Part shown: piece after piece, positions 199 through 44,588 of the stretch
How positions within the stretch are numbered: position 1 is the first letter of the stretch
Layout: each line of letters begins with the position of its first letter
Source of the DNA: an uncultured Verrucomicrobia subdivision 3 bacterium
GTDB lineage: Bacteria; Verrucomicrobiota; Verrucomicrobiia; Limisphaerales; UBA11358
Reading direction: 5' to 3'
Length of the DNA stretch: 64,000 bases
Assembly (NCBI GenBank): GCA_903858275.1
Contig: CAIOIC010000023.1
Location: forward strand, 1-64,000
Made by a program: the position numbers and the translations under genes
Notes under the pieces: model-generated
Databases searched by the model: none
The model's input: only the letters and a program-made list of their open reading frames with translations
What the model was told of the DNA's origin: nothing

Positions 199-1341
199 TC
201 ACCTCCCAAGCTCACGTCGGTATTCAGATGGCCAGCGGCCGGTGTTTTTGTAAAACGCCCGACTGAAGGCGGAGGCGGTGCTGTAGCCGCAACTGCGGGC
301 CACTTCGGAAATGGATTGGGAGTCATCCGACAATCTGGCCTGGGCCAGTTGCAGGCGCACACGCTTGAGTTCATCGCCGATAGTCCGGTTCAAAGCGGTG
401 GCAAAGCGCCGGTCCAAGGTGCGACGGGAAATATTCAAAGCCTGCGCGACTTGTTTTACGCCGATGGCGTTGCCCGCCTGGGCGCGGACGAATTGGATGG
501 CAGCTTTGACCAACTCATCTTCCACCGCCACCATGTCCGTCGAGCCGCGCGTGACGATGCCGGTGGGTTGAATTTTAAGATGCGGAGTTTTGATTTTTTT
601 ACCGGTCATCGCCTGCGTCAGCATTTTTGCGGCTTCCAGACCGAAGCGCGCCGATGGGAGACTGAAACTGGACAAGGTGGGATGGCTTACTTCGCACATG
701 AGTTCGTCATTGCCAATGCCGATGACAGCCACTTGATGGGGGACGGAAATCTCTGCCGAGCGGCAGGCGGTGAGAACCCGCTCTCCGAGTTTGTCGTCGA
801 ATACCAGCAGGCCGATGGGCTTCGGCAATTTCTTGAGCCAATTCACCAGCGGTTCCAGCCCCGATTCGCCTTCGCTGACCGCTTCGGAGAAGGTTGGCAA
901 GGCGTGGTGCTTAAGACACGCCGCGAGGCTGGCTTCACGCTGCTCCGAGGTGACGCGTCCGGTGACGCCGCAATACCCAAAATACTTGAGTCCGATTTGG
1001 CGGAAATGCGCCAGCGCCAGATGGCTCAGGGCATCGTTATCCAGACTGACGGTCAGCGAAACGGCCACTTCACCCACGGCCGTGTCCACGAGCGGCACGG
1101 ACAATTGTTTGGCGGCATTAACCAGCCAGCGGTCCGCCACATAGGCGATGATCCCGTCCGGTGCAAGACGGGCGACATCCATCGCGGCGGCTTTCCCACT
1201 CTGGCGCACCAGCATCATGCGCCAACCCAGCCGACGAAGGTATTGCACGATGCCTTGCAGGCGATGCCGCGCGCCGCCGTCGCGGGTGTCAATGCACACG
1301 GCGATGGACTTGGCACGCGAGGACAAGGTCGGCATGGCCAT
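199..1341 (-). CDS. XylR-type transcriptional regulator (periplasmic-binding-protein-like sensor plus AraC HTH)
   Basis: 380 residues from ATG 1341; an upstream TTG at 1371 is a less likely start. The N-terminal two thirds (about residues 5-265) has the PBP1/LacI-type effector-binding layout, including the GIIAYVADRW and GIGNDELMCEVSHPTLSS stretches (compare the IGxxNDxxxCxxxxPxLSS motif of E. coli XylR). The last about 100 residues are an AraC double HTH (VAQALNISRRTLDRRFATAL, then ISEVARSCGYSTASAFSRAF). It is transcribed divergently from the block starting at 1441, so it probably senses a sugar or breakdown product and controls that block. The effector is unknown. No good Shine-Dalgarno precedes either candidate ATG (1341 or 1335). 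Confidence 0.9.
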   Translation of the reverse strand: MAMPTLSSRAKSIAVCIDTRDGGARHRLQGIVQYLRRLGWRMMLVRQSGKAAAMDVARLAPDGIIAYVADRWLVNAAKQLSVPLVDTAVGEVAVSLTVSLDNDALSHLALAHFRQIGLKYFGYCGVTGRVTSEQREASLAACLKHHALPTFSEAVSEGESGLEPLVNWLKKLPKPIGLLVFDDKLGERVLTACRSAEISVPHQVAVIGIGNDELMCEVSHPTLSSFSLPSARFGLEAAKMLTQAMTGKKIKTPHLKIQPTGIVTRGSTDMVAVEDELVKAAIQFVRAQAGNAIGVKQVAQALNISRRTLDRRFATALNRTIGDELKRVRLQLAQARLSDDSQSISEVARSCGYSTASAFSRAFYKNTGRWPSEYRRELGR

Positions 1342-1346
1342 TAGAG

Positions 1347-1364
1347 TGCATGGCCTAAAATGCA
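1347..1364. promoter_or_regulatory. Candidate operator: TGCAT-N8-ATGCA dyad
   Basis: A perfect 5-bp inverted repeat with an 8-bp spacer lies just upstream of the regulator's start codon in the divergent spacer to the next gene. A second short dyad, CGGGC-GCC-GCCCG, lies at 1391-1403. Position suggests a regulatory role, but the half-sites are short and could occur by chance. Confidence 0.25.
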
Positions 1365-1440
1365 ATATCAATGGCTAATCAAGTCAATTGCGGGCGCCGC
1401 CCGATTCTTCTAACATCCGAGGAAATTACCCGTCTAGCCA

Positions 1441-2220
1441 ATGCCTATGCGCTTTAGAAATAAAATTGTCCTCGTGACCGGAGCCGGCCAAAACACGGGA
1501 CTTGGTATCGCCGAATGCTTCGTGGCGGAAGGGGCTACCGTCTATCTCAACGATCGGACGCCCGAAGCGGTGGATCGAGCGGTGGCGGCGCTACGCAAGC
1601 GCGGCTTCCGGAAAATTCATGGCGTGCCCGCCGACATCGGTTCGTCCGGCGAGGTGGAAGAAATGTTCCGCCACATCAAAACCAGAGCCAAACGAATTGA
1701 TGTGCTCGTGAACAACGCCGCCAACCTCGGCATCGGCCCGGGATTTTTGAAAACCAAGCTGGAATTTTTCGAGATGGTCATCCGCGTCAATCTCATCGGC
1801 ACATTTCTCGTCTCGCAGCAAGCGGCGCAGCTCATGGCGGGAAAAAGTGGTGGTGTCATCATTAACATTGGCTCTGCCGTTTCCACTCGTGCCATCCGCG
1901 ACAAAACCGCCTACCTTGCCTCCAAGGGCGGAATTGATGCCCTCACCATTTCGATGGCGTTGGACCTCGGTCCGCGCGGCATCCGCGTGAACAACGTCGC
2001 GCCCGGCTACATCCACAGCGACCGCTGGGCGACGCTTCCAAAAAACCACGCACAACGCCGCCGCCAAAATGTGCCGCTCGGCCGGGAGGCCACGCCCGAG
2101 GACATCGGTCGCGCCGTACTTTTCCTCGCCTCGGCGGACGCCTCCAACATCACCGGCATCCGCCTCGTCGTGGACGGGGGATGTTGCGCCCAGCACATGC
2201 CCAAAGATAGCGACGTGTGA
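1441..2220 (+). CDS. SDR-family NAD(P)-dependent oxidoreductase
   Basis: 259 residues, classical short-chain dehydrogenase size. The N-terminal dinucleotide motif is TGAGQNTGLG (about residues 14-23). VNNAANLG follows in mid-protein, then the catalytic Ser in NIGSAVS and the YLASK (YxxxK) motif, with a normal C-terminal NITGIRLVVDGG. The substrate is likely a sugar, sugar acid or sugar lactone, inferred from context only. It is the first gene of the block divergent from the XylR-type regulator, and its stop overlaps the GTG start of the MFS gene by 4 bp, so the two are probably co-translated. A GAGGAAAT stretch lies about 15-20 bp upstream; ATG 1447 is an alternative start. Confidence 0.92.
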   Translation: MPMRFRNKIVLVTGAGQNTGLGIAECFVAEGATVYLNDRTPEAVDRAVAALRKRGFRKIHGVPADIGSSGEVEEMFRHIKTRAKRIDVLVNNAANLGIGPGFLKTKLEFFEMVIRVNLIGTFLVSQQAAQLMAGKSGGVIINIGSAVSTRAIRDKTAYLASKGGIDALTISMALDLGPRGIRVNNVAPGYIHSDRWATLPKNHAQRRRQNVPLGREATPEDIGRAVLFLASADASNITGIRLVVDGGCCAQHMPKDSDV

Positions 2221-3509
2221 AAACAAACTTGGAACCAAACAGCGTCAGTCCCCGCCCGCGCTACAAATGGGAGTTGCTGGCACTATTGTTTTGCACGTTC
2301 TTTTTCCATCAAGGCGACCGCGCCATTTACGGCGTGGTGCTCTCGGCCATCAAGACTGACTTGCATCTGGCCGACAGTCAACTCGGCTTGGTGGGATCGG
2401 TTTTATTTTTCACTTTGGCTTTGATGATGCCGGTCGCGGGTTATCTGGGCGACGTGCTGAACCGCAAAAAAATTATCATCGGCAGCCTGTTGTTTTGGAG
2501 CGCGGCGACGATGTGCACCGGTTTCGCCGGTGGTTTGGCGGGGCTGATTATTTTCCGCAGCGTGGCGACGGCTGGCGGGGAATCTTTCTATGCGCCGGCG
2601 GCCTATCCGCTGCTGGCCTCGCACCACACCCGCACGCGCTCACTCGCGCTGGCGATTCATCAATCGTCACTTTATCTCGGCGTGATGGTGACGGGTTTTC
2701 TCGGCGGATTTATCGCTCAACAGTGGGGCTGGCGCTCGGCATTTTTTATTTACGGCGCAGGCGGAATCGTGCTGGGCGTAATTCTCATCTGGCGGCTGCT
2801 CGATGCGCTGCCCGCCGTCTTAGCCGAAGGAGTAAAACGCGATTCAATCTGGCAGGCGCTCGGCGTGGTTTTTCGTTCGCCAAGCGCGCTGCTGTTGACG
2901 ACGGGTTTTACCGCCATCGTTTTTGTCAACAACGCCTTCGTCGTCTGGTCGCCGGTTTTCTTGCAGGAAAAATTCCATCTCTCAATGACACAGGCCGGCG
3001 GCTATGCGTTGTTCTATCATCATCTGGCGGCCTTGGCGGGGATTCTTCTCGGCGGCTGGATCACCGACCGGACGGTTCGCGCGCGTCCGCTGTTCCGTCC
3101 GCAACTGATGAGCGCAGCCATGCTGCTGGGCGCGCCGGTGATTTTTCTGATGGGCACTTCCGCCAGTCTGATTGCGACCTGCACAGCCATGGCCGGTTTC
3201 GGCTTGCTGCGCGGCCTCTACGAAGCCAACACCCACGCGGCGTTGTTCGATGTGATTTCTCCCCGCCACCGCGCTTCGGCGGTGGGCATCATGACTATGC
3301 TCGCGTTTCTCATCGGATCGCTGTCGCCGTGGCTGCTGGGTCGTTTGCGCGAGTCGCAGCCTGACGGCCGGGGATTGGGCCATGGTTTTTCCGCGCTGGC
3401 CGGAGCGTATTTGATTGGCGGACTAGCCGTCCTGCTGGCGGCGGTTTTCACTTTCAAGCGCGAACGAATTTCTGACGACGCTGCCGAGAAACCGCTGGCA
3501 AGCCATTGA
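2217..3509 (+). CDS. MFS transporter, sugar/organic-acid type
   Basis: 430 residues starting at GTG, which overlaps the SDR stop (GTGA). About twelve hydrophobic segments are readable. The loop between helices 2 and 3 carries the MFS signature as GYLGDVLNRKKII, and a related half-motif, GGWITDRTVRARP, appears in the second half. The protein sits in the inner membrane and probably imports the sugar acid or oligosaccharide handled by the SDR before it and the dehydratase fusion after it. The family resembles anion:cation symporter or spinster-like MFS proteins; the substrate cannot be read from sequence. Confidence 0.88.
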   Translation: MKTNLEPNSVSPRPRYKWELLALLFCTFFFHQGDRAIYGVVLSAIKTDLHLADSQLGLVGSVLFFTLALMMPVAGYLGDVLNRKKIIIGSLLFWSAATMCTGFAGGLAGLIIFRSVATAGGESFYAPAAYPLLASHHTRTRSLALAIHQSSLYLGVMVTGFLGGFIAQQWGWRSAFFIYGAGGIVLGVILIWRLLDALPAVLAEGVKRDSIWQALGVVFRSPSALLLTTGFTAIVFVNNAFVVWSPVFLQEKFHLSMTQAGGYALFYHHLAALAGILLGGWITDRTVRARPLFRPQLMSAAMLLGAPVIFLMGTSASLIATCTAMAGFGLLRGLYEANTHAALFDVISPRHRASAVGIMTMLAFLIGSLSPWLLGRLRESQPDGRGLGHGFSALAGAYLIGGLAVLLAAVFTFKRERISDDAAEKPLASH

Positions 3510-3516
3510 AATCAAA

Positions 3517-5442
3517 ATGAAAATCACCTGGCTCGGACAATCTGGATACTTGCTGGAGACCGGAAATCATCGGCTGGCGATTGATCCCTTCTTCAGCGAC
3601 ATCGTCGAACGCAAGCAGGGATTGCGCCGGCTCATGCCGCCCCCTTGCTCGATTGCCAGCCTGAGACCTGACATCCTGTTGGTGACTCACAATCATCTGG
3701 ATCATTTCGATCCCGAAACCGTCGTGGAAATCATGCGCAGCTTTCCCGCCTGCCGGCTTGTCGGTCCGAGAAGCGTCATGGAACTGGCCAAGAAAAATGA
3801 AATTTCTGATGCGCGGCTCGGCTTGCTCGCCGTCGGTCAGACCGTTCGGCTTGGAAATGTAAACATCACTGCCACGCCCGCCCGGCACAGCGATCCATGT
3901 GCGGTCGGACTGCTGATTCAAACCGATGCCGAACTGCTTTGGTTCAGCGGCGACACCTTGTATTACCCGGAACTTTCCGGACAGGTTTTGGAACAGGCGG
4001 GTCGCTCACCGGATATCGCCTTCGTGTGCATCAACGGCAAGCTGGGCAACATGAATCTCACCGAGGCCGCGCAACTGACCGCCGAGTTGCGACCGCGTCT
4101 GGCCATCCCGATGCACTACGGGATGTTCGCTGAGAACACCGCCGACCCTGACGAATTTCGCCGCGCCTGTGCGTGCCACGACCAACGCACCGCCATTTTG
4201 ACCTGTGGAAAATCTATTGAAAGCTCCACCCTGTTGAACGAACACTCCTGCATCACTGCCAAAACCATTTCACCTATGAAAATTACCGCGCTCAAACCCA
4301 TCATCTGCCACGCCTACCGTACCAACTGGGTTTTCGTCAAAGTGATGACCGACGAGGGACTTTACGGCATCGGCGAGGCCACGCTCGAATATCGCGAGAA
4401 GACCGTCGCCGAGGCCATCCGCGAATTGGAGCGCACGCTCGTTGGGCGCGATCCGCACCAGATCGAGGCGCTCTGGCACGAAGCGTATCGCAGCACATAC
4501 TTTCGCGGCGGACCGGTTTTCATGAGCGCGCTCTCGGCCGTGGAGATGGCGTTGTGGGATATCAAAGGCAAGGCGCTCGGCGTGCCCGTCTATCAATTGC
4601 TCGGCGGCAAGGTGCGCGACTCCGTGCCGTGTTATGCCAACGGCTGGTTCGCTCCGGCGAAAACTCCCGCCGAGTTTGCGGAAAAAGCCAAGGTCGCCGT
4701 CGCCGCTGGTTTCGCTGGCCTGAAATGGGATCCTTTCGGCTCGTCGTATCTCGACATTTCCAAAGCCGATTTGCATCTCGCGCTAGACAACATCGCCGCC
4801 GTGAAAGCTGCGGTTGGCAATCAAACCGATTTGCTCATCGAAGGACACGGTCGCTTCAACATCGCCACCGCTGTGCGCATCGCGCGCGAACTGGAGCGGT
4901 TCGACATTCTCTGGTTTGAAGAACCCGTGCCGCCGGACAATCTCGATGCGCTGCTTGAAGTGAAGCAGCGCAGCCGCGTGCCCATCGCCGCCGGTGAACG
5001 GCTTTACAGCCGTTGGGAGGCGTCCACCTTCCTTGAGAAAAAGTGCGCCGACTTTATCCAGCCCGATGTGAGCCACTGCGGCGGCATCGGTGAGTTAAAA
5101 AAAATCGCCGCCATGGCCGAGGCGCGTCACATCGCCGTTTGCCCGCACAATCCGAGCGGCCCGGTCGCCAACGCCGCCACGCTACAACTCGCCGCCTGCA
5201 CGCCTAATTTCTTCATTCACGAGACGATGGCGGTGGATGTGCCGTGGAGGCGTGAGATTGCAAACGAGCAGATGCGTTTCTCCCAAGGCCGCATGACAAT
5301 TCCCGACGCTCCCGGTCTCGGCATCGACCTCAACGAAGACGCCATCGCCGCTCATCCCTACGAACCGCGCGATCTGCGCCATTATTCCGGCAATCTAACG
5401 GACATCCGGCCCGCCAATGCCACGGGTTATTTTAAACAATAA
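3517..5442 (+). CDS. Metallo-beta-lactamase-fold hydrolase fused to mandelate racemase/enolase-superfamily dehydratase
   Basis: A single 641-residue frame with two complete enzymes. Residues 1 to about 236 are an UlaG-like metallo-beta-lactamase fold: THNHLDH with H58, H60, D62 and H63, then H124, D146 (FSGDT) and H200 (AIPMHYG). From Met254 (ATG 4276) follows a full enolase-superfamily protein of 388 residues, the size of D-galactonate dehydratase, with LLIEGHGRFN, WFEEPVPPDN, AAGERLYSR and CPHNPSGPVA. The roughly 17-residue linker looks like translated intergenic DNA. UlaG-type enzymes open sugar lactones and this enolase group dehydrates sugar acids, so lactone to acid to 2-keto-3-deoxy acid in one chain is a reasonable inference. 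Independent initiation at 4276 is possible, though no clear ribosome-binding site precedes it. Confidence 0.85.
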   Translation: MKITWLGQSGYLLETGNHRLAIDPFFSDIVERKQGLRRLMPPPCSIASLRPDILLVTHNHLDHFDPETVVEIMRSFPACRLVGPRSVMELAKKNEISDARLGLLAVGQTVRLGNVNITATPARHSDPCAVGLLIQTDAELLWFSGDTLYYPELSGQVLEQAGRSPDIAFVCINGKLGNMNLTEAAQLTAELRPRLAIPMHYGMFAENTADPDEFRRACACHDQRTAILTCGKSIESSTLLNEHSCITAKTISPMKITALKPIICHAYRTNWVFVKVMTDEGLYGIGEATLEYREKTVAEAIRELERTLVGRDPHQIEALWHEAYRSTYFRGGPVFMSALSAVEMALWDIKGKALGVPVYQLLGGKVRDSVPCYANGWFAPAKTPAEFAEKAKVAVAAGFAGLKWDPFGSSYLDISKADLHLALDNIAAVKAAVGNQTDLLIEGHGRFNIATAVRIARELERFDILWFEEPVPPDNLDALLEVKQRSRVPIAAGERLYSRWEASTFLEKKCADFIQPDVSHCGGIGELKKIAAMAEARHIAVCPHNPSGPVANAATLQLAACTPNFFIHETMAVDVPWRREIANEQMRFSQGRMTIPDAPGLGIDLNEDAIAAHPYEPRDLRHYSGNLTDIRPANATGYFKQ

Positions 5443-5477: not shown

Positions 5478-7580
5478 ATGAAAACATGTAGCCTGCTCCC
5501 ATTAATTCTCATGCTGCCAATCGCCAGCGTGGCTGATGAAATCATCCTGTTTGATGCCGCCACAACGCCAATATCGGAAATCACTTCGCAGTCGGGAGGA
5601 AAGTTCGAGCTGCGGGACGGCTTGTTAGCGGTTGAGACCAAGGGCGAGACGGGGTATCCGGGAATACGGATAAAAGGGACGTGGGATTTGTCGAAGTGCA
5701 ACCGGCTGACGCTGGAGCTGACGAACCGTGACCACAAAGGTGAGTTGCCACTCACGGTCCGCCTCGACAATCCGGATGTGGATCCCGGCAAATCGCAGGG
5801 AGTGTTCATTGACCGAGTGAAAATTCGCTGCAATACGCCGACAATTTACACAGTGTCGCTGCCGCCGCCGCTGCCCTTCGGGCGCGAGATCAACAGCAAA
5901 CTCACCGGCATGAAACGTGGTCCCTTGGCAATGGTTGGGATGGCGGCCGATTTAAATCCAGCGAAAGTTACCGGCGTGGCGGTCTATATCAACGAACCGA
6001 AGCTGGACTGGTTGTGGGGCGTGAAACGCATTGTCGCACACACGGGACCATTGCCGAACGTGCCGACGTGGATGCGACTACCGCCTGAAAAATTCTTCCC
6101 GTTCATTGATGTGTATGGCCAGTTCAAGCACAAGGAGTGGCCCGGCAAAACGCACTCAGACGAAGACCTGAAGAAGGCGATTGAGACGGAGCGTGCCGAC
6201 CTCGCCACGCATCCCGGCCCCGACGGTTGGAACAAATACGGCGGCTGGGCCAAGGGGCCGCAGCAGAAGGCGACCGGCCGGTTCCGCGTCGAAAAAATCA
6301 ACGGCAAATGGTGGATGGTGGATCCCGAAGGCTGCCTTTGGTGGTCGCATGGGCCGGTGCGCGTCACTTCCTCGTCCGCGGTGACGCCGCTGGACGGACG
6401 CGAGTTCTACTTTACTGATTTGCCGAAATCGGGTTCACCGTTTGCGCTGTTCTACACAACGCGTGACGCGCTGCTCTGGCCGTATTACGTCGCGCGCGGC
6501 ATCCAGCGGACGTATGATTTCTCCTCGGCAAACGCCTTCCGTAAATATGGGACGGATTGGCAGGCGCGCTACGCCGACTTGGCGCACCAACGGTTGCGGA
6601 GTTGGGGCATGAACACCATCGCGAACAGTTCCGACAAGGGCATCTGCCTGCAACGCCGCACGCCCTACTGCGACCGCTTCGAGTTGAAATCGCCGGACAT
6701 CGAGGGCGCGCATCTCGGCTGGTGGAGATTCAAGGATCCGTTTCACCCGGAGTTCCGGGCCAGCTTCCGTCGCCAGCTCGAGCAGCGGAAAGAGGAGTTA
6801 AATGATCCGTGGTGCTTCGGGTTCTTCGTGGACAACGAAATCAGTTGGGGCGACGAAACCGCGCTGGCGGACTGGACACTGCAATCACCCGCCACCCAAC
6901 CCGCGAAAGTTGAGATGATCCGTCGGCTGAAGGAAAAATACGGCTCAATCGCCAAGCTCAACGAGGCGTGGAAAACGAATTATGTGGATTGGGAAGCGCT
7001 GCTCCAGTCGCAGCAAAAGCCGCCGGCGGGCGCAAAAGATGACCGTGTCGCGTTCACTGCCGCCGTAACCGAAGCTTACTTCAAGAACATTCGCGACGAG
7101 TTCAAGGCGGTCGCGCCGAACACGCTCTACATGGGCTGCCGCTTCGCCGGCTCGACCAAGGCCGCCGTCCAGATTGGCGCGAAATATTGTGATGTCATCA
7201 GCTACAACATTTACCGGCACACGCTGGATGATTTCAAACTGCCGGCGGGCGTGGACAAGCCGGTGATGATTGGTGAGTTCCATTTCGGCGCGCTTGATCG
7301 GGGCATGTTCCATCCGAGCCTAATCGAGGTCGCCAACCAAGCCGCGCGCGGCAAGGCTTATGCCGCCTACATCACCAGCGCGCTGCGGCACCCGAACTTC
7401 GTGGGTGCGCACTGGCATCAGTTTGGCGAGCAACCCACGACTGGGCGCTTTGACGGTGAGAACCTCCAGAACGGTTTTCTAGACGTGTGCGACACTCCCT
7501 ATCCTGAAACCATCGCGGGCATCCGCGAAGTCGGCTACCGCCTCTACGAAATCCGCAGCGAAGGCGAAAATCGAAAATGA
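5478..7580 (+). CDS. Secreted glycoside hydrolase, GH50/agarase-like
   Basis: 700 residues with a Sec signal (MKTCSLLPLILMLPIASVAD). Residues about 20-190 form a beta-rich carbohydrate-binding-like domain. From about 265 comes a TIM-barrel hydrolase whose entry segment (GKWWMVDPEGCLWWSHGP, then TPLDGREFYF) is typical of proteins annotated as beta-agarase/GH50. Likely catalytic glutamates are E454 in VDNEISWGDE and E600 in MIGEFHFGA. The family acts on beta-galactan-type substrates, but many verrucomicrobial relatives are uncharacterised, so agarose specificity should not be assumed. Its stop overlaps the next start (ATGA). Confidence 0.75.
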   Translation: MKTCSLLPLILMLPIASVADEIILFDAATTPISEITSQSGGKFELRDGLLAVETKGETGYPGIRIKGTWDLSKCNRLTLELTNRDHKGELPLTVRLDNPDVDPGKSQGVFIDRVKIRCNTPTIYTVSLPPPLPFGREINSKLTGMKRGPLAMVGMAADLNPAKVTGVAVYINEPKLDWLWGVKRIVAHTGPLPNVPTWMRLPPEKFFPFIDVYGQFKHKEWPGKTHSDEDLKKAIETERADLATHPGPDGWNKYGGWAKGPQQKATGRFRVEKINGKWWMVDPEGCLWWSHGPVRVTSSSAVTPLDGREFYFTDLPKSGSPFALFYTTRDALLWPYYVARGIQRTYDFSSANAFRKYGTDWQARYADLAHQRLRSWGMNTIANSSDKGICLQRRTPYCDRFELKSPDIEGAHLGWWRFKDPFHPEFRASFRRQLEQRKEELNDPWCFGFFVDNEISWGDETALADWTLQSPATQPAKVEMIRRLKEKYGSIAKLNEAWKTNYVDWEALLQSQQKPPAGAKDDRVAFTAAVTEAYFKNIRDEFKAVAPNTLYMGCRFAGSTKAAVQIGAKYCDVISYNIYRHTLDDFKLPAGVDKPVMIGEFHFGALDRGMFHPSLIEVANQAARGKAYAAYITSALRHPNFVGAHWHQFGEQPTTGRFDGENLQNGFLDVCDTPYPETIAGIREVGYRLYEIRSEGENRK

Positions 7581-9493
7581 ACCGTCGCACCATTTTCACT
7601 TTGATGGCTGCGACTCTGTTGGCGGTTACGGCTTGGGCGCAGGAGCAAAAGCCTCCGTCCTTCGCCTACCGTTCGTTCTGGCCGGAGTTCGAGGCCATGA
7701 AACAATTCAAGGACGCGGGTGTGAACACCGTCTGCATCTTCGCCGCCAACACTGACAATTCGCTGGGCCAGCCCTACTCCAAATATCCACCCGTCTGGCG
7801 CTGGTTCGGAAAATATGACTTTGCCTCGCTGGACAAACAGTATGACGACGTGCTCGCGGTGAATCCGAATGCGGAATTCATCTGCATGATTGATCTCAAC
7901 ACGCCGATCTGGCTCCAGCGTCAACTCTCGCTCGGCGGACACAGCGCTGAAAGCGAGAGCTTCACCATGCTGAGCTGCGCCTGCGCCAACCCGGCGTGGC
8001 GCAAGGCGACTTCCGAGTATCTGGTGGCGCTCGTCAAGCACCTGGAGACGCGATACGGCGACCGTATCAAGTCCTACTTGCTGGCCTGCGGTCAGACCGA
8101 TGAGTGGATGGATTACAGCCGCGGTGTCGCGGGCCGCGCCAAAACGCAGGCTTGGAAAGCGTGGCTGAAAGCACACGGCAAACCGGAACTGCCCGTGCCT
8201 GCGTTGGAGCGGCTCGACCACGCGGCGTTCGAGGACTTGATTCGCGACCCGGCCACGGAGCGGGACATCGTGGATTACGCGCAGTTCACCGGTGACATCA
8301 TTGTGGACGCGGTGCTGGCCTTCACGAAGGAGACGCGGGCGATTATTCCCAAGCAACGTCAGATCGGGATGTTCTTCGGATACATTCTCGAATTGACCAA
8401 ATCCCGCATGGTCTGGTCGGGGCACCTCGAATACGAGCGGCTCTATAGTTCGCCCGACATTGACTTCTTCATCAGCCCGGGCACTTACAGCGACCGACCG
8501 ATGGGCGGCGGCAGCGGCTTCATGGTGCCCAATGCCACACGGTTGCTGAACAAAAAGGGTTTCCTTCACGAGATAGATCACCGCACGCCGACTTACAACG
8601 TCAAGCTGGACGAGTTCGTGTCCATCGGTTGGATGGTGCCGTGGAAAGATCAGGAAGAAACCGACGCCGGATTGAAACGCGAGTTTGCCCTCGCGATCAC
8701 TGCGCAAACTTCGCTGTGGTATTTCGACATGTGGGGCGGCGTGTTCAAGACTCCGGAAACCATGAAGCTGGTCGCACAGAGCAAGAAGCTGTGGGATGAA
8801 TACGGCGCCATACCATTGAAAAGCCGTGCGGAAGTGGCGCTGGTGGTGGATCCGCAAAGCGCGCGTTATCTCAACGACCAAAATTCCGTCATCTCGCAGA
8901 TTTATCAAGCTACACGGAACAAGCTGAATCGCCTCGGCGCGCCATTCGAGGTCTTTTCATTCAACGATCTGCCGCGCGCCGACCTCGCTCAATACCACCT
9001 GTTCATCTTCCCCGGACTTTTCGAGATCACGCCGGAGAAAATGGAAGTGCTGCAGAAATACGTCCTTAACAAAAACCGCACTGCACTCTTCCTCTACGCT
9101 CCCGGCATCAGCAACGGCAAGAGTCTTGATCCGGCGCGGGTGAAAGCGTTGACCGGCACCGCATTCAAGACAACTGGCGTCAACACCGTGCAGCGCGAGG
9201 GTTGGAAGTCCGTTTACATCGGCAGTTATGACGATTTGACGCCACAGGTATTACGCAAAACGGCGCGGGAAGCTGGCGCGACAATCTACTGCGACGAGGA
9301 GGTTCCCGTTTACGCCAACGAACGCCTCGTAACCATCCATACGGCGCAAGGCGGGGAGAAAATCATCTCGTTACCGGTTGATTGCCGGCAAGTCCGTGAA
9401 CTTTTCACCGGAAAGACCGTGCTGGTGACCGGCCGGCAATTTCGCTATGAGTTCGAGACGCCCGACACCGCATTGTTTGAACTGATTTGGTAA
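7577..9493 (+). CDS. Secreted GH42-like hydrolase, paralogue A (Sec signal)
   Basis: 638 residues, Sec signal ending near WAQ (residues 19-21). The N-terminal two thirds is a TIM-barrel-like region with E176 in GQTDEW and E332 in LHEIDHRT. Both are conserved in the second paralogue at 14980 (STEW, HELDHTT), which makes them the best catalytic candidates. The C-terminal part (about 420-600) has the Rossmann-like layout of the GH42 trimerisation/glutamine-amidotransferase-like domain, including LFLYAPGISNG. A beta-galactosidase-like role is plausible. It is translationally coupled (ATGA) to the GH50-like gene before it. Confidence 0.65.
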   Translation: MNRRTIFTLMAATLLAVTAWAQEQKPPSFAYRSFWPEFEAMKQFKDAGVNTVCIFAANTDNSLGQPYSKYPPVWRWFGKYDFASLDKQYDDVLAVNPNAEFICMIDLNTPIWLQRQLSLGGHSAESESFTMLSCACANPAWRKATSEYLVALVKHLETRYGDRIKSYLLACGQTDEWMDYSRGVAGRAKTQAWKAWLKAHGKPELPVPALERLDHAAFEDLIRDPATERDIVDYAQFTGDIIVDAVLAFTKETRAIIPKQRQIGMFFGYILELTKSRMVWSGHLEYERLYSSPDIDFFISPGTYSDRPMGGGSGFMVPNATRLLNKKGFLHEIDHRTPTYNVKLDEFVSIGWMVPWKDQEETDAGLKREFALAITAQTSLWYFDMWGGVFKTPETMKLVAQSKKLWDEYGAIPLKSRAEVALVVDPQSARYLNDQNSVISQIYQATRNKLNRLGAPFEVFSFNDLPRADLAQYHLFIFPGLFEITPEKMEVLQKYVLNKNRTALFLYAPGISNGKSLDPARVKALTGTAFKTTGVNTVQREGWKSVYIGSYDDLTPQVLRKTAREAGATIYCDEEVPVYANERLVTIHTAQGGEKIISLPVDCRQVRELFTGKTVLVTGRQFRYEFETPDTALFELIW

Positions 9494-14979: not shown

Positions 14980-17232
14980 ATGAAAACCAATCGCCGTAAA
15001 TTCATTCTCACCACCGGGAGCGCCAGTCTCGGTGCGCTGGCTCTGACCAACGCACTCTCTTTAACCGCAACTGCCGCCACTCCGCGTGGCTTGCGGGCCA
15101 GGATTGTTTCCGTTGGCGGCGTGCTGAAGATCGAGATCAACGGCAAGGTTTTCGAGCCGCTGTCCTTCCGTTCATTCCGGCCGGAGGAACGCAACATCCG
15201 CGAGTTCCATCAGGCTGGCGTCCGCCTGATGAGCATCCTCCACACCGGCATGGATTGCACGCTGGACGTGCCCTACTCGAAGTCCGGCGAGATCTGGACC
15301 GGCCCCGGCCAATACGACTTTGCCGCGTTCGACCGCCAGATGGATCTCTTCATCCAGAACGCGCCGGACACGTATTTCAACGTCATGCTCCAGCTCGACA
15401 CCCGGCAGTGGTTCCTCAAAGACCACCCGGAGCATCCCAACAGTTTCTGGAATCTGGTCGAAACCGCCGGCGATCCCGCCTGGCGCGCGCGCACCGCCGA
15501 GGCGCTTCAGGCGATGATCCGCCACAGCGAGGAGAAATACGGCGACCGCGTTTTCTCCTACAGCCTCTTCTGCGGCTCCTCCACGGAATGGTATACCAAC
15601 TCGCAGGGACGCGGCCGGCCGGATGCCCGCATCCGCCAGCACCCAATGAAAACCGCCGCCTTCCGCAAATTCACCGGTGATCCGACGGCGGAGATGCCGC
15701 CCCTCGATGTCCTGCAACAGACCTCCAACGGCATTCTTCGCGATCCGGTGAAGGACGCCGACGCGCTCCGTTATTGGAAGTTCCACCACGACATCATCGG
15801 CGACGCCATCGTCTATTTCTGTGCGAAGACCCAGGAAGTGATCGAGCACCGGAAACTGTTGGGGATATTCTACGGTTACCTCACCCAGCTCAACAGCGAG
15901 CGACTGCTTCAGGAAGGCCACCTCGCCTACGAACGCGTCTGGAATTGCCCGGATCTGGATATCATCTACGCGCCGGCAAAATATGGGAAACCCCGCGCCT
16001 TCGAGGGTGCCAGCGGTTATCTGCTCACCGTGGACTCGCTCCGCCTCCGCAACAAGATGGTTTGGCACGAGCTCGACCACACCACCTACATCGCACCCAC
16101 AAAAGTGGAAAACGGCCGCGCGATCCCCGGCTCCGGTTCCAAGCTCAAGGACGAGTTTCAAACCCGCATGGTCCTGCGCCGCGAGTTCGCCCTCTCCCAC
16201 ACAAAGTTGACCGCCATGTGGTGGTTTGATTTTTTTGGCGGCTACTATTATGCCAAACCGCTGATGCAGGAGGTCGCCAATTTGGTGCGGGTTCAGCAGC
16301 GCCTCAAGAATGTGGCGATGGACTCGGTCGCCCAGATTGCCGTCTTCGGCGATGTGCGCTCAATGTTCCACATCAACGCCCGCTCCAGCATCGCCGACGA
16401 TTTGCTCGTCAATCCGCCCGACGAACTCGCCCGCATCGGCGCGCCCTTTGACATCTATAATTTCTCCGACATCGGCCACACGAAGCTGCCGTTGGATCGC
16501 TACAAGCTCTGCATCTTCCTCAACGCCTTTCTGATTTCCGATGAGCAAAAGGAAATCATCCGCAAAAAATTCCGCCAGCACGGCAAAACCCTGCTGTGGC
16601 TCTACGCTCCCGGTTACATCCGTGCCGATGGATTTTCCCTCGACGGCATCGCCGAAATAACCGGTATCAAAGTTGCGCAGCGAACGGCCGCCAATAGCCA
16701 TGTCCGCGTGGATGCCAAAGGCAACTTCGCCCAGATGAAAGAGCCCGCGCGCTTCGGCTTCACCCCCGGTCAGGCCACCGACGCCACCAAACGCGACCAA
16801 ACCTTCGACATGCGCTCTCAAGGACTAATGGAAACCGCCCCGCTTTTTCAAGTGAACGACCCCGCTGCGGAAACCTGGGGCGTTTACGGAACGGATGGCG
16901 CGGTGGCGCTTGCCGCGAGGAAACTGGAAAACCACACCTCCGTCTATTGCGCGGTTGGAAACATCCCGGCTGCCGTCTTCCGAGAGATCGCCCGCCACGC
17001 CGGAGTTCACATTTACTACGAGGGCAACGATCCGGTTTACATCAACAGCCGGCTCATCGGCATCCACATGCAGAGCGACACCGCACCCGTCATCACCCTG
17101 CCGTTGCGAAAGCCGTGCCGCCTGGAAGAACTCTTAGACGGCGGGGAAGTGCGCGGTGAAAATGGCGTGTGCCATCTTCCGCGCGAGGCTGGTGTTACCA
17201 AGCTTTATCTGCTCGCGGATGCGATTCGATAG
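14980..17232 (+). CDS. Tat-exported GH42-like hydrolase, paralogue B
   Basis: 750 residues with a Tat leader (NRRKFILTTGSASLGALALT). It is homologous along its length to the protein at 7577, with the candidate catalytic E203 (STEW) and E364 (HELDHTT) in matching places and the same C-terminal domain (LLWLYAPGYI, then YINSRLIGIHM). It is about 110 residues longer, with a beta-rich N-terminal extension and an insert near 590-640. The two copies use different export routes, Sec for A and Tat for B, which suggests B folds in the cytoplasm, perhaps around a cofactor. Its last 28 bp overlap the convergent regulator gene. Confidence 0.65.
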   Translation: MKTNRRKFILTTGSASLGALALTNALSLTATAATPRGLRARIVSVGGVLKIEINGKVFEPLSFRSFRPEERNIREFHQAGVRLMSILHTGMDCTLDVPYSKSGEIWTGPGQYDFAAFDRQMDLFIQNAPDTYFNVMLQLDTRQWFLKDHPEHPNSFWNLVETAGDPAWRARTAEALQAMIRHSEEKYGDRVFSYSLFCGSSTEWYTNSQGRGRPDARIRQHPMKTAAFRKFTGDPTAEMPPLDVLQQTSNGILRDPVKDADALRYWKFHHDIIGDAIVYFCAKTQEVIEHRKLLGIFYGYLTQLNSERLLQEGHLAYERVWNCPDLDIIYAPAKYGKPRAFEGASGYLLTVDSLRLRNKMVWHELDHTTYIAPTKVENGRAIPGSGSKLKDEFQTRMVLRREFALSHTKLTAMWWFDFFGGYYYAKPLMQEVANLVRVQQRLKNVAMDSVAQIAVFGDVRSMFHINARSSIADDLLVNPPDELARIGAPFDIYNFSDIGHTKLPLDRYKLCIFLNAFLISDEQKEIIRKKFRQHGKTLLWLYAPGYIRADGFSLDGIAEITGIKVAQRTAANSHVRVDAKGNFAQMKEPARFGFTPGQATDATKRDQTFDMRSQGLMETAPLFQVNDPAAETWGVYGTDGAVALAARKLENHTSVYCAVGNIPAAVFREIARHAGVHIYYEGNDPVYINSRLIGIHMQSDTAPVITLPLRKPCRLEELLDGGEVRGENGVCHLPREAGVTKLYLLADAIR

Positions 17233-41867: not shown

Positions 41868-44588
41868 ATGAAAACCTTAGCCCTCAATTCCATCATCTCG
41901 CTCCTATCCATCATGCTGTGCGCAGCAGGTCTGCGAGCCGCCGACGTGCCGATTATTCTCGCGCCGGACGCACCATCGAGTGCCCGTCTCGCGGCGCAGG
42001 ACTTGGCCAATGATCTTGGTCGTTTGTATCCGCGGGACAAGTTTACTCTCGACAGAAGTTTGCCGACCACCGGCAAAGCCATTCTGGTCGGCCAGATTTC
42101 CGACAAGTTGGTGCAGGCTCGTTTGGGCAGCGACATTCCAACGAAACCGGAATCGTTTGTCATTCGCACGCAAAAGAGCGGCGGCTTGGATTTGGGCATC
42201 ATCGCCGGGGCGGATGCGCGCGGCGCGGCCTACGGCGTTTATCAACTACTCGCCCAACTCAGCTGCGGCTTTTACTTGAGCGGCGACACACTGCCCGCTC
42301 GCAAGACAGGCGCGTTTGACTTTGCCGGGTGGAATTTGGAGAACGCTCCGCTTACGCCTGAGCGCATTGTTTTCAACTGGCACAACTTTTTGAGCGGTTG
42401 CTCGACGTGGAATCTGCCCGATTGGCAGAAATGGACCGCGCAGTCGCAGAAGATGGGTTTCAACGCGATCATGGTTCACGCCTACGGCAACAATCCGATG
42501 GCGGGATTCAATTTTCAGGGAACTGCCAAGCCCGTCGGTTATCTGTCCACGACCGTCAAGGGACGTGATTGGTCAACGATGCATGTGACCGATGTTCGCC
42601 GGATTTTTGGTGGCGAGGTTTTTGATCAGCCGGTTTTTGGCTCGGAAGCAGGCTTGGTTGCGGAAGACCAGCGGGTGGCGGCTGCGCAGTCGCTGATGCA
42701 AAAAGTTTTTGCCGATGCGGGACAACGTGGCATGGGCGTCTATTTTGCGGTGGATGTGGACACGCCCAGCGCGAATCCGCAGGAACTGGTGACGTTGCTG
42801 CCGGAATCGGCGCGCTTCCAAGCGAGCGGCGCGACTTCAACTTTGACGGGCAGTTCAACCAATCGTATCTGGCTGCCGAATCCGGACACGCCGGAAGGCT
42901 ACGCCTATTATCGCGCGCAAGTTGAAGGCTTGCTCAAAAACTATCCGCAAATCACGAAGCTGGTGGTTTGGTTTCGCCGTGACGGCACGCCGTGGGTGAC
43001 GCTGAAAGCGGGCGATTTGCCTGCGGCCTGGCAGAAAGAATTTGCAGCGGAGATTGCGCTAACGCCGAAAGCGGAACAGTTCTGGCGTGCGCCCGGAATT
43101 TTTGCCGTGGGCAAAATTGTGCGGGCCTTTGAACGTGCACTGAAGGATTGCCGCGCCACGCGGACTCAGGTGGTAGCGGGCACTTGGGGATTTGAATTTC
43201 TCCCGACGGCGGATCGTTTTTTCCCCGCTGGCGTGCCGCTGATCGGTTTGGATTACGATGTCATCCACGAAAAACCGCAACTGGGCGAGGCCGCCTCGCG
43301 CGCACCCTTGCGGGAGATTGGCGCGCATCGGCCGGTGATCCCGGTGGTGTGGGCGCACCACGACGACGGACATTACATCGGCCGGCCATATACGCCGCTC
43401 CCGGAATTCGCCGCAAAGCTGGCAGACGCCAAAGCTGCGGGTTTCGGTATCATTCATTGGACCACGAGACCGCTGGATTTCTACTTCGACAGCCTTGCGA
43501 AACAGGTTTGGAAAAGCACGAAGGATCAACCATTGCGCGAAACCTGTCGGGATTTTGCGGGCGACTGGTTTGGAGCGCAGAATCGGGGAGTGATGGGGGA
43601 ATACCTGCAAGCGTGGATCACCGGCGCACCCCGGTTCGGTCGTGACACTAGCGATTGGTTTATTGACCGCCAACTGACGAACATCACGGAAGTGATCAAC
43701 GGCTGCCGCACGCGGCTGGCGATAATGGACAAGGCAAGCATCGACGGGCTGCTGCCGGAACAGCAGCAGCGTCTCGACTATCAACGGGACTTGGAGCGAT
43801 TCATCACATCATTCCACGAGGCGCACGGATATTTCCAAGACGCGCAGGACTTGCTGAAAAAAAGCGACGCCACCGGCGCGCGAACGGCCATCGCCAAATG
43901 CCAGCCGGAAAAAGTAATTGAGCAGTTCGCCCGCTTCAGTTCCATCGGCGGCATCACGCGCGGCGAACAAGGATTGGTCATCTCGCTGAATACGCGCTGG
44001 CTGAGTCATATCGTTGGTTTGCGTCAGGCGCTCGGACTGGAGCTGGTGCGCGTTCGATTCACTGCGACTTCGCATGATATGCTCGCCCAGTCGCGTGGCA
44101 CTTACACTTTCCACTTCGGTCCGGATCACGATCTATGGGAATGCTGGGGCCAGCAGGAAACGGGAGCATCGGTCATGACACTGCCGCCTTCGTCACCCGC
44201 GACGAATGCCCCCGTGCCTGCCGCTTGGAGCGAGGTCTGCCGCAGCGGGATTGAAATCACCAAGCCGCTCACGCTGACGCTGCGTCCCTTCATGATGCGA
44301 TCCCAGCCGTTGCCGCCGGGCGCCTACCGCCTGCGCTTGCTCGTCGTTGATACCGACTCCACCGCACCGGGGCAGCGGGTATTTGAAGTTAAAGCTGCCA
44401 GCCTCTCTGCTGACCGCGTGGATGTTTTCAGCCGTGCCGGTAAAGCAAACCGAATTGTCGAACTCGCCTATCCCGTCACGCTCAAAACGGCGGGCGCGGT
44501 TGCTGTGACGTTGACGCCGGTGAAAGGAAGCGCGATTCTCTGCGGCGCGGTGTTGGAACCGGTTAATTCCGCCATGTCTTCCCGCTAG
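41868..44588 (+). CDS. Large secreted alpha-glucuronidase-like hydrolase (GH67/GH115-like N-domain)
   Basis: 906 residues, Sec signal ending near LRA-A. Residues about 25-140 match the alpha-glucuronidase N-terminal fold (SARLAAQDLANDLGRLY, ILVGQISD, GADARGAAYGVYQLLAQL). A long TIM-barrel-like region follows (FNAIMVHAYGNNPMAGF, LVVWFRRDGTPW, PVVWAHHDDGHYIGRPY), then a helical segment and a C-terminal beta domain. Overall layout fits GH67/GH115 or an unnamed relative. Release of (methyl)glucuronic acid side chains would suit the uronate genes upstream. The exact family is not certain by eye. Confidence 0.55.
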   Translation: MKTLALNSIISLLSIMLCAAGLRAADVPIILAPDAPSSARLAAQDLANDLGRLYPRDKFTLDRSLPTTGKAILVGQISDKLVQARLGSDIPTKPESFVIRTQKSGGLDLGIIAGADARGAAYGVYQLLAQLSCGFYLSGDTLPARKTGAFDFAGWNLENAPLTPERIVFNWHNFLSGCSTWNLPDWQKWTAQSQKMGFNAIMVHAYGNNPMAGFNFQGTAKPVGYLSTTVKGRDWSTMHVTDVRRIFGGEVFDQPVFGSEAGLVAEDQRVAAAQSLMQKVFADAGQRGMGVYFAVDVDTPSANPQELVTLLPESARFQASGATSTLTGSSTNRIWLPNPDTPEGYAYYRAQVEGLLKNYPQITKLVVWFRRDGTPWVTLKAGDLPAAWQKEFAAEIALTPKAEQFWRAPGIFAVGKIVRAFERALKDCRATRTQVVAGTWGFEFLPTADRFFPAGVPLIGLDYDVIHEKPQLGEAASRAPLREIGAHRPVIPVVWAHHDDGHYIGRPYTPLPEFAAKLADAKAAGFGIIHWTTRPLDFYFDSLAKQVWKSTKDQPLRETCRDFAGDWFGAQNRGVMGEYLQAWITGAPRFGRDTSDWFIDRQLTNITEVINGCRTRLAIMDKASIDGLLPEQQQRLDYQRDLERFITSFHEAHGYFQDAQDLLKKSDATGARTAIAKCQPEKVIEQFARFSSIGGITRGEQGLVISLNTRWLSHIVGLRQALGLELVRVRFTATSHDMLAQSRGTYTFHFGPDHDLWECWGQQETGASVMTLPPSSPATNAPVPAAWSEVCRSGIEITKPLTLTLRPFMMRSQPLPPGAYRLRLLVVDTDSTAPGQRVFEVKAASLSADRVDVFSRAGKANRIVELAYPVTLKTAGAVAVTLTPVKGSAILCGAVLEPVNSAMSSR

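Follow-up and report, generated by a model that had tools for sequence, protein, structure and literature searches.

Fusion of a metallo-beta-lactamase-fold hydrolase and a sugar-acid dehydratase in Verrucomicrobia subdivision 3, probably by a frame change at an overlapping gene pair

Main finding

In an uncultured Verrucomicrobia subdivision 3 bacterium (GenBank assembly GCA_903858275.1, contig CAIOIC010000023.1, positions 1 to 64,000; this whole stretch of 64,000 nucleotides is called the window below), a single reading frame joins a metallo-beta-lactamase (MBL) fold hydrolase to an enolase-superfamily sugar-acid dehydratase. This fusion is genuine, represents the derived state and has been kept in two species. 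We believe, with a probability of roughly 0.7, that it is a genuine two-domain gene that arose from a translationally coupled pair of genes with an ATGA overlap by a net change of one nucleotide, and that the encoded chain would be bifunctional, acting as a lactonase and a dehydratase. The more specific proposal, for which we see even odds, is that of a bifunctional lactonase-aldonate dehydratase, a combination absent from the sources searched, in which the net one-nucleotide frame change would have made of the coupled pair a single tethered enzyme that carries out two successive steps. In any case, the fused gene is a novel, narrowly distributed joining of known kinds of enzyme in a recognisable type of operon. 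The first-pass annotation, made from the letters of the window, did not count a lactonase-dehydratase fusion among the described architectures; our search of the literature and databases, which was not exhaustive, likewise returned no description of one.

The gene and its operon neighbours are as follows.

199..1371, minus strand: AraC-type regulator, divergently oriented, whose sugar-binding domain is LacI-like (PF13377 and PF12833; conserved in L040, L041 and L043)
1441..2220, plus strand: SDR dehydrogenase, predicted sugar 1-dehydrogenase (PF13561; best NCBIfam model glucose 1-dehydrogenase, 204 against a cut-off of 215)
2217..3509, plus strand: MFS transporter of the same operon, 7 nt upstream of the fusion and in GTGA overlap with the SDR gene (PF07690; among the NCBIfam models closest to the D-galactonate transporter, whose cut-off it does not reach)
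3517..5442, plus strand: fused ORF, MBL-fold hydrolase and enolase-superfamily dehydratase (single open frame; same fusion in G016/L040)
3517..4227, plus strand: MBL (UPF0173-like) hydrolase domain, residues 1-237, predicted lactonase (Pfam PF12706/PF13483; profile matches; dN/dS 0.13)
3685..3705, plus strand: metal-binding motif THNHLDH, residues 57-63 (H58, H60, D62 and H63, all four invariant in 19 sequences)
3886..3888, plus strand: metal ligand His124, invariant
3952..3954, plus strand: metal ligand Asp146, invariant
4114..4116, plus strand: metal ligand His200, invariant
4228..4275, plus strand: 48-nt tether in the dehydratase frame, formerly the tail at the C-terminus of the MBL (frame comparison); residues 243-252 predicted disordered (pLDDT <50)
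4276..5442, plus strand: sugar-acid dehydratase domain of the enolase superfamily (mandelate racemase subgroup), residues 254-641 (above the PRK14017 cut-off; invariant active-site residues)

The two domains and the tether

The frame starts with ATG, encodes 641 amino acids and contains 0 internal stops. Pfam places Lactamase_B_2 at residues 18-201 (1e-19), MR_MLE_N at 268-363 (3e-24) and MR_MLE_C at 386-609 (3e-70); since all metal and catalytic residues are there as well, the initial observation of two complete domains in one frame of 641 codons is borne out. An AlphaFold2 model of the chain has two confident domains with pLDDT <50 at residues 243-252, and its overall pTM of 0.62 leaves the mutual placement of the domains not fixed. 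The best 50 Foldseek matches are exclusively enolase-superfamily proteins; PADLOC returned no match.

The MBL half carries the HxHxDH motif of the superfamily followed further downstream by His, Asp and His, and the seven residues concerned (H58, H60, D62, H63, H124, D146 and H200) are unchanged in an alignment of 19 relatives. Its closest solved relatives are the UPF0173 hydrolases (TM_1162, PDB 3x2z; 8e-23 in a profile search, aligned over the whole domain). These stand alone, whereas the MBL half sits in a group tied to sugar-acid dehydratase operons and scores 100 against the UPF0173 (PRK00685) cut-off of 144, UPF0173 still being the nearest family. The L-ascorbate-6-phosphate lactonase UlaG (PDB 2wyl) shares with it the superfamily, the metal motif and the proposed reaction, lactone hydrolysis, but the match is far weaker and partial (1e-14), and the score with the NCBIfam model of UlaG (PRK11709) is 41.6 against a cut-off of 306. 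According to PMC3219644, some 30 N-terminal residues (helices 1-3) that serve hexamerisation are typical of UlaG; the MBL half starts directly with the first core strand. The first-pass description of a UlaG-like lactonase fold with all His and Asp ligands is thus correct for the ligands, and the likeness to UlaG holds only at the level of the superfamily.

The dehydratase begins at Met254 (position 4276), as initially proposed, and this ATG is the counterpart of the start codon in the unfused dehydratase gene. PF02746 and PF13378 are well over cut-off, which assigns the domain to the mandelate racemase subgroup. The acidic ligands E442, E468 and E494 together with H444, D517 and H544 align to 3rr1, and all six residues are unchanged across 18 aligned relatives. 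The score with the galactonate dehydratase model PRK14017 is 352 (cut-off 311), and the NCBIfam gluconate/galactonate dehydratase model gives a good match, yet below its cut-off; by its sequence, the second half is placed among or next to the galactonate dehydratases. It has in common with DgoD / PRK14017 (PDB 3rr1) the fold and the aligned catalytic His residues, and differs in the first metal ligand (Glu442 as against Asp in 3rr1) and in being fused to an MBL; D-galactonate is one candidate substrate.

The stretch between the halves had been taken for translated intergenic DNA. It is instead the native tail at the C-terminus of the MBL, with homologues in the tails of unfused MBLs (STLL.../STLLEKA.../ARLLDTH...). 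Relative to the dehydratase this stretch is in frame 0 here and in G016, whereas the sister G060 and L041-L043 have an offset of 2 together with the ATGA overlap. The spacer evolves fast (dN/dS about 0.54), so that no constraint is visible beyond that of remaining open, which is what would be expected for a tether.

Conservation and selection

The collection scanned with the MBL half as query covered 84,980 species, and the best 80 of 203 related stretches were used; further searches covered about 1,500 genomes (repeats counted), including a class search around G708. These turned up one further fused copy, that of G016 (L040; CAIXUZ010000063.1, a Verrucomicrobia subdivision 3 MAG), which belongs to the same genus but a different species. 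The two fused genes are 91% identical end to end, with the same 48-nt spacer and dS of 0.57-0.60 (about 0.58), while 17 of the 75 positions in and around the spacer differ. The first-pass annotation would have given up the fusion if all close relatives had two separate genes; the closest relative proved to be fused, and all the more distant relatives found have two genes.

Both halves are under purifying selection. Across the pair of fused species dN/dS is 0.13 for the MBL half and 0.06 for the dehydratase half, as compared with 0.16-0.34 and 0.03-0.18, respectively, in the unfused pairs that could be measured. The value for the MBL half is as low as in unfused pairs, and hence this half is not decaying.

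Origin of the fusion

Among 70 classifiable distinct loci of this dehydratase family, 33 have an MBL directly upstream: 2 are fused, 19 have a 4-nt overlap of the MBL stop with the dehydratase start (18 ATGA and 1 GTGA) and 12 have a gap of 5-48 nt. The other 37 loci have no MBL nearby, which indicates that the MBL is not always required at the locus; in G060 it is internally deleted. The ATGA overlap is present in each of the nearest unfused relatives (G060, L041, L042 and L043), even though the ATG lies at varying distances, 38 to 50 nt, from the point where the aligned MBL core ends; the overlap has therefore been kept through length changes. The unfused ATGA pairs L041, L042, L043 and L134 are orthologous to the present gene, have the same order and mostly lie in the same SDR-MFS-MBL-dehydratase operon; they would yield two polypeptides, probably translationally coupled, whereas the fused gene would yield one chain.

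In the dehydratase tree the fused rows form one group (96/74; 95% of bootstrap trees), and G060, whose dehydratase is 89% identical, is their sister (100/99 for all three). Since this sister is unfused and has the ATGA overlap, the fused state is the derived one, and within the sample it arose once. The tail length relative to the dehydratase is 0 modulo 3 in both fused genes, while the overlap needs 2 modulo 3; consequently, a net +1 nt (or -2) carried the MBL frame into the dehydratase. It had been suggested that the fusion may reflect a recent loss of a stop codon. The overlapping stop is indeed no longer read, but the event looks like a net one-nucleotide frame change at the ATGA overlap and not a point loss of the stop, and it is older than the split of the two species.

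A short overlap links the translation of two genes through termination-reinitiation, and such overlaps are especially frequent in genes that encode the subunits of heteromeric complexes (PMC10666635). We presume that the ancestral state was such a coupled pair, with the terminal TGA of the MBL gene overlapping the dehydratase ATG. In the ancestor of the two species of the genus, the MBL tail would have changed in length by a net one nucleotide, somewhere along its course, and so have come into the dehydratase frame; the overlapping stop would then have gone unread, and a single chain would hold both proteins, linked by a flexible tether some 15 residues long. The fusion would set a 1:1 ratio and take over from the termination-reinitiation coupling.

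Long frames upstream of the dehydratase in several relatives from the phylum (G864, G688, G855, G752, G337, G821, G332, G942 and others) were considered as independent fusions and rejected, being out-of-frame open sequence or having no MBL match. In G060 (L009:2700-3010, minus strand) MBL residues 53-187 are missing in frame, and the short frame is still in ATGA overlap with an intact dehydratase; either what is left of the MBL has been retained as a translational leader, or the assembly has collapsed here. In genus g1 the MBL-dehydratase locus occurs in 2 of 49 genomes, a third having only a 30% MBL relative; as near relatives are found in further families and phyla, the operon seems to have spread by horizontal transfer.

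Operon context and proposed pathway

The order SDR, MFS transporter, MBL, dehydratase recurs in L040-L044, L046 and L049-L050, which span several phyla. In oxidative non-phosphorylative sugar pathways, the product of an SDR sugar dehydrogenase is expected to undergo lactone hydrolysis before an aldonate dehydratase takes over. From these established pathways we infer the order of the steps: the SDR encoded upstream would supply an aldonolactone, the N-terminal MBL domain would hydrolyse it to the aldonate, and the C-terminal domain would dehydrate the aldonate to a 2-keto-3-deoxy acid. This is the economical reading, and the conserved gene order supports the predicted succession of sugar, lactone, aldonate and 2-keto-3-deoxy acid. 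The initial idea of a two-step enzyme, lactonase plus sugar-acid dehydratase, agrees with the conserved fusion, with the completeness of both halves and the purifying selection on them, and with the operon context; the first half is nearer to UPF0173 than to UlaG.

Alternative explanations

An error of assembly or base calling could in principle imitate the fusion, the true sequence being two genes with an ATGA overlap. A single base would be enough, and the two genomes with the fusion probably come from metagenome assemblies (the title of G016 calls it a MAG, and G000, the genome of the window, is a draft of 136 contigs). Nevertheless, two species diverged to dS of about 0.58, with 17/75 differences in and around the spacer, agree both in the frame and in the 48-nt length of the spacer, which would require two identical errors; a shared error is implausible, and we give this explanation almost no weight. 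A more serious one, though unlikely in our opinion, is that the single frame has two main products: internal initiation at ATG 4276 would make most of the dehydratase, and the fusion would be a near-neutral loss of the overlapping stop. This ATG is retained in both fused species, and the fused state is limited to two species in the samples searched. The lack of a Shine-Dalgarno motif at 4276 might be counted against internal initiation, but it carries little weight: such motifs occur at 3 of the 37 gene starts examined in the window (background rate 8.5%), which suggests that initiation in this lineage is mostly Shine-Dalgarno-independent, and a start without the motif is normal there. On the other hand, the unfused dehydratase start probably relied on termination at the ATGA overlap (PMC10666635), which is now gone. 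With the stop that triggered reinitiation unread, the full-length chain should be the main source of the dehydratase; the MBL half, moreover, remains under normal purifying selection. We prefer a genuine two-domain gene with one principal product.

A different doubt, to which we assign a similarly low probability, concerns the function of the first half. The MBL family also holds non-lactonase hydrolases, which counts against our reading, and the substrate of the domain may be a different ester or amide, or else a side product, so that the fused enzymes would not be consecutive in a pathway. The nearest solved structures, the UPF0173 hydrolases, are named merely metal-dependent hydrolases, and many dehydratases of this family have no adjoining MBL. 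Against this, many loci place the MBL beside an SDR and a sugar-acid dehydratase; among them are loci of Clostridia, where a related MBL lies near an SDR and a far more distant enolase-superfamily, dehydratase-like protein (25-29% identical); by pathway logic, lactone hydrolysis is the step to be expected between the two. The lactonase role remains our preferred assignment.

Significance

The case is clean and polarised: a coupled overlapping gene pair would have become a fusion by a tiny frame change, and the unfused sister state is still visible. As Rosetta-stone evidence, the fusion also links a poorly characterised UPF0173-like hydrolase to the work of sugar-acid dehydratases. This link would give the hydrolase a lactonase role in the many phyla that have the unfused pair.

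Surrounding genes

Downstream of the fused gene, carbohydrate genes follow one another over a long stretch (5478-41334), most of them on the plus strand. They include GH42-like, GH20-like, GH141-like and GH38 hydrolases, GH88 and beta-helix proteins, as well as ROK, URO-D-like, RraA-like, UxuA-like and DUF6807 proteins and AraC and LacI regulators; several gene pairs in this run have 4-nt overlaps. In or beside this catabolic cluster, three large predicted proteins (14980-17232, 41868-44588 and 7577-9493; 750, 906 and 638 aa) have 0 Pfam matches.
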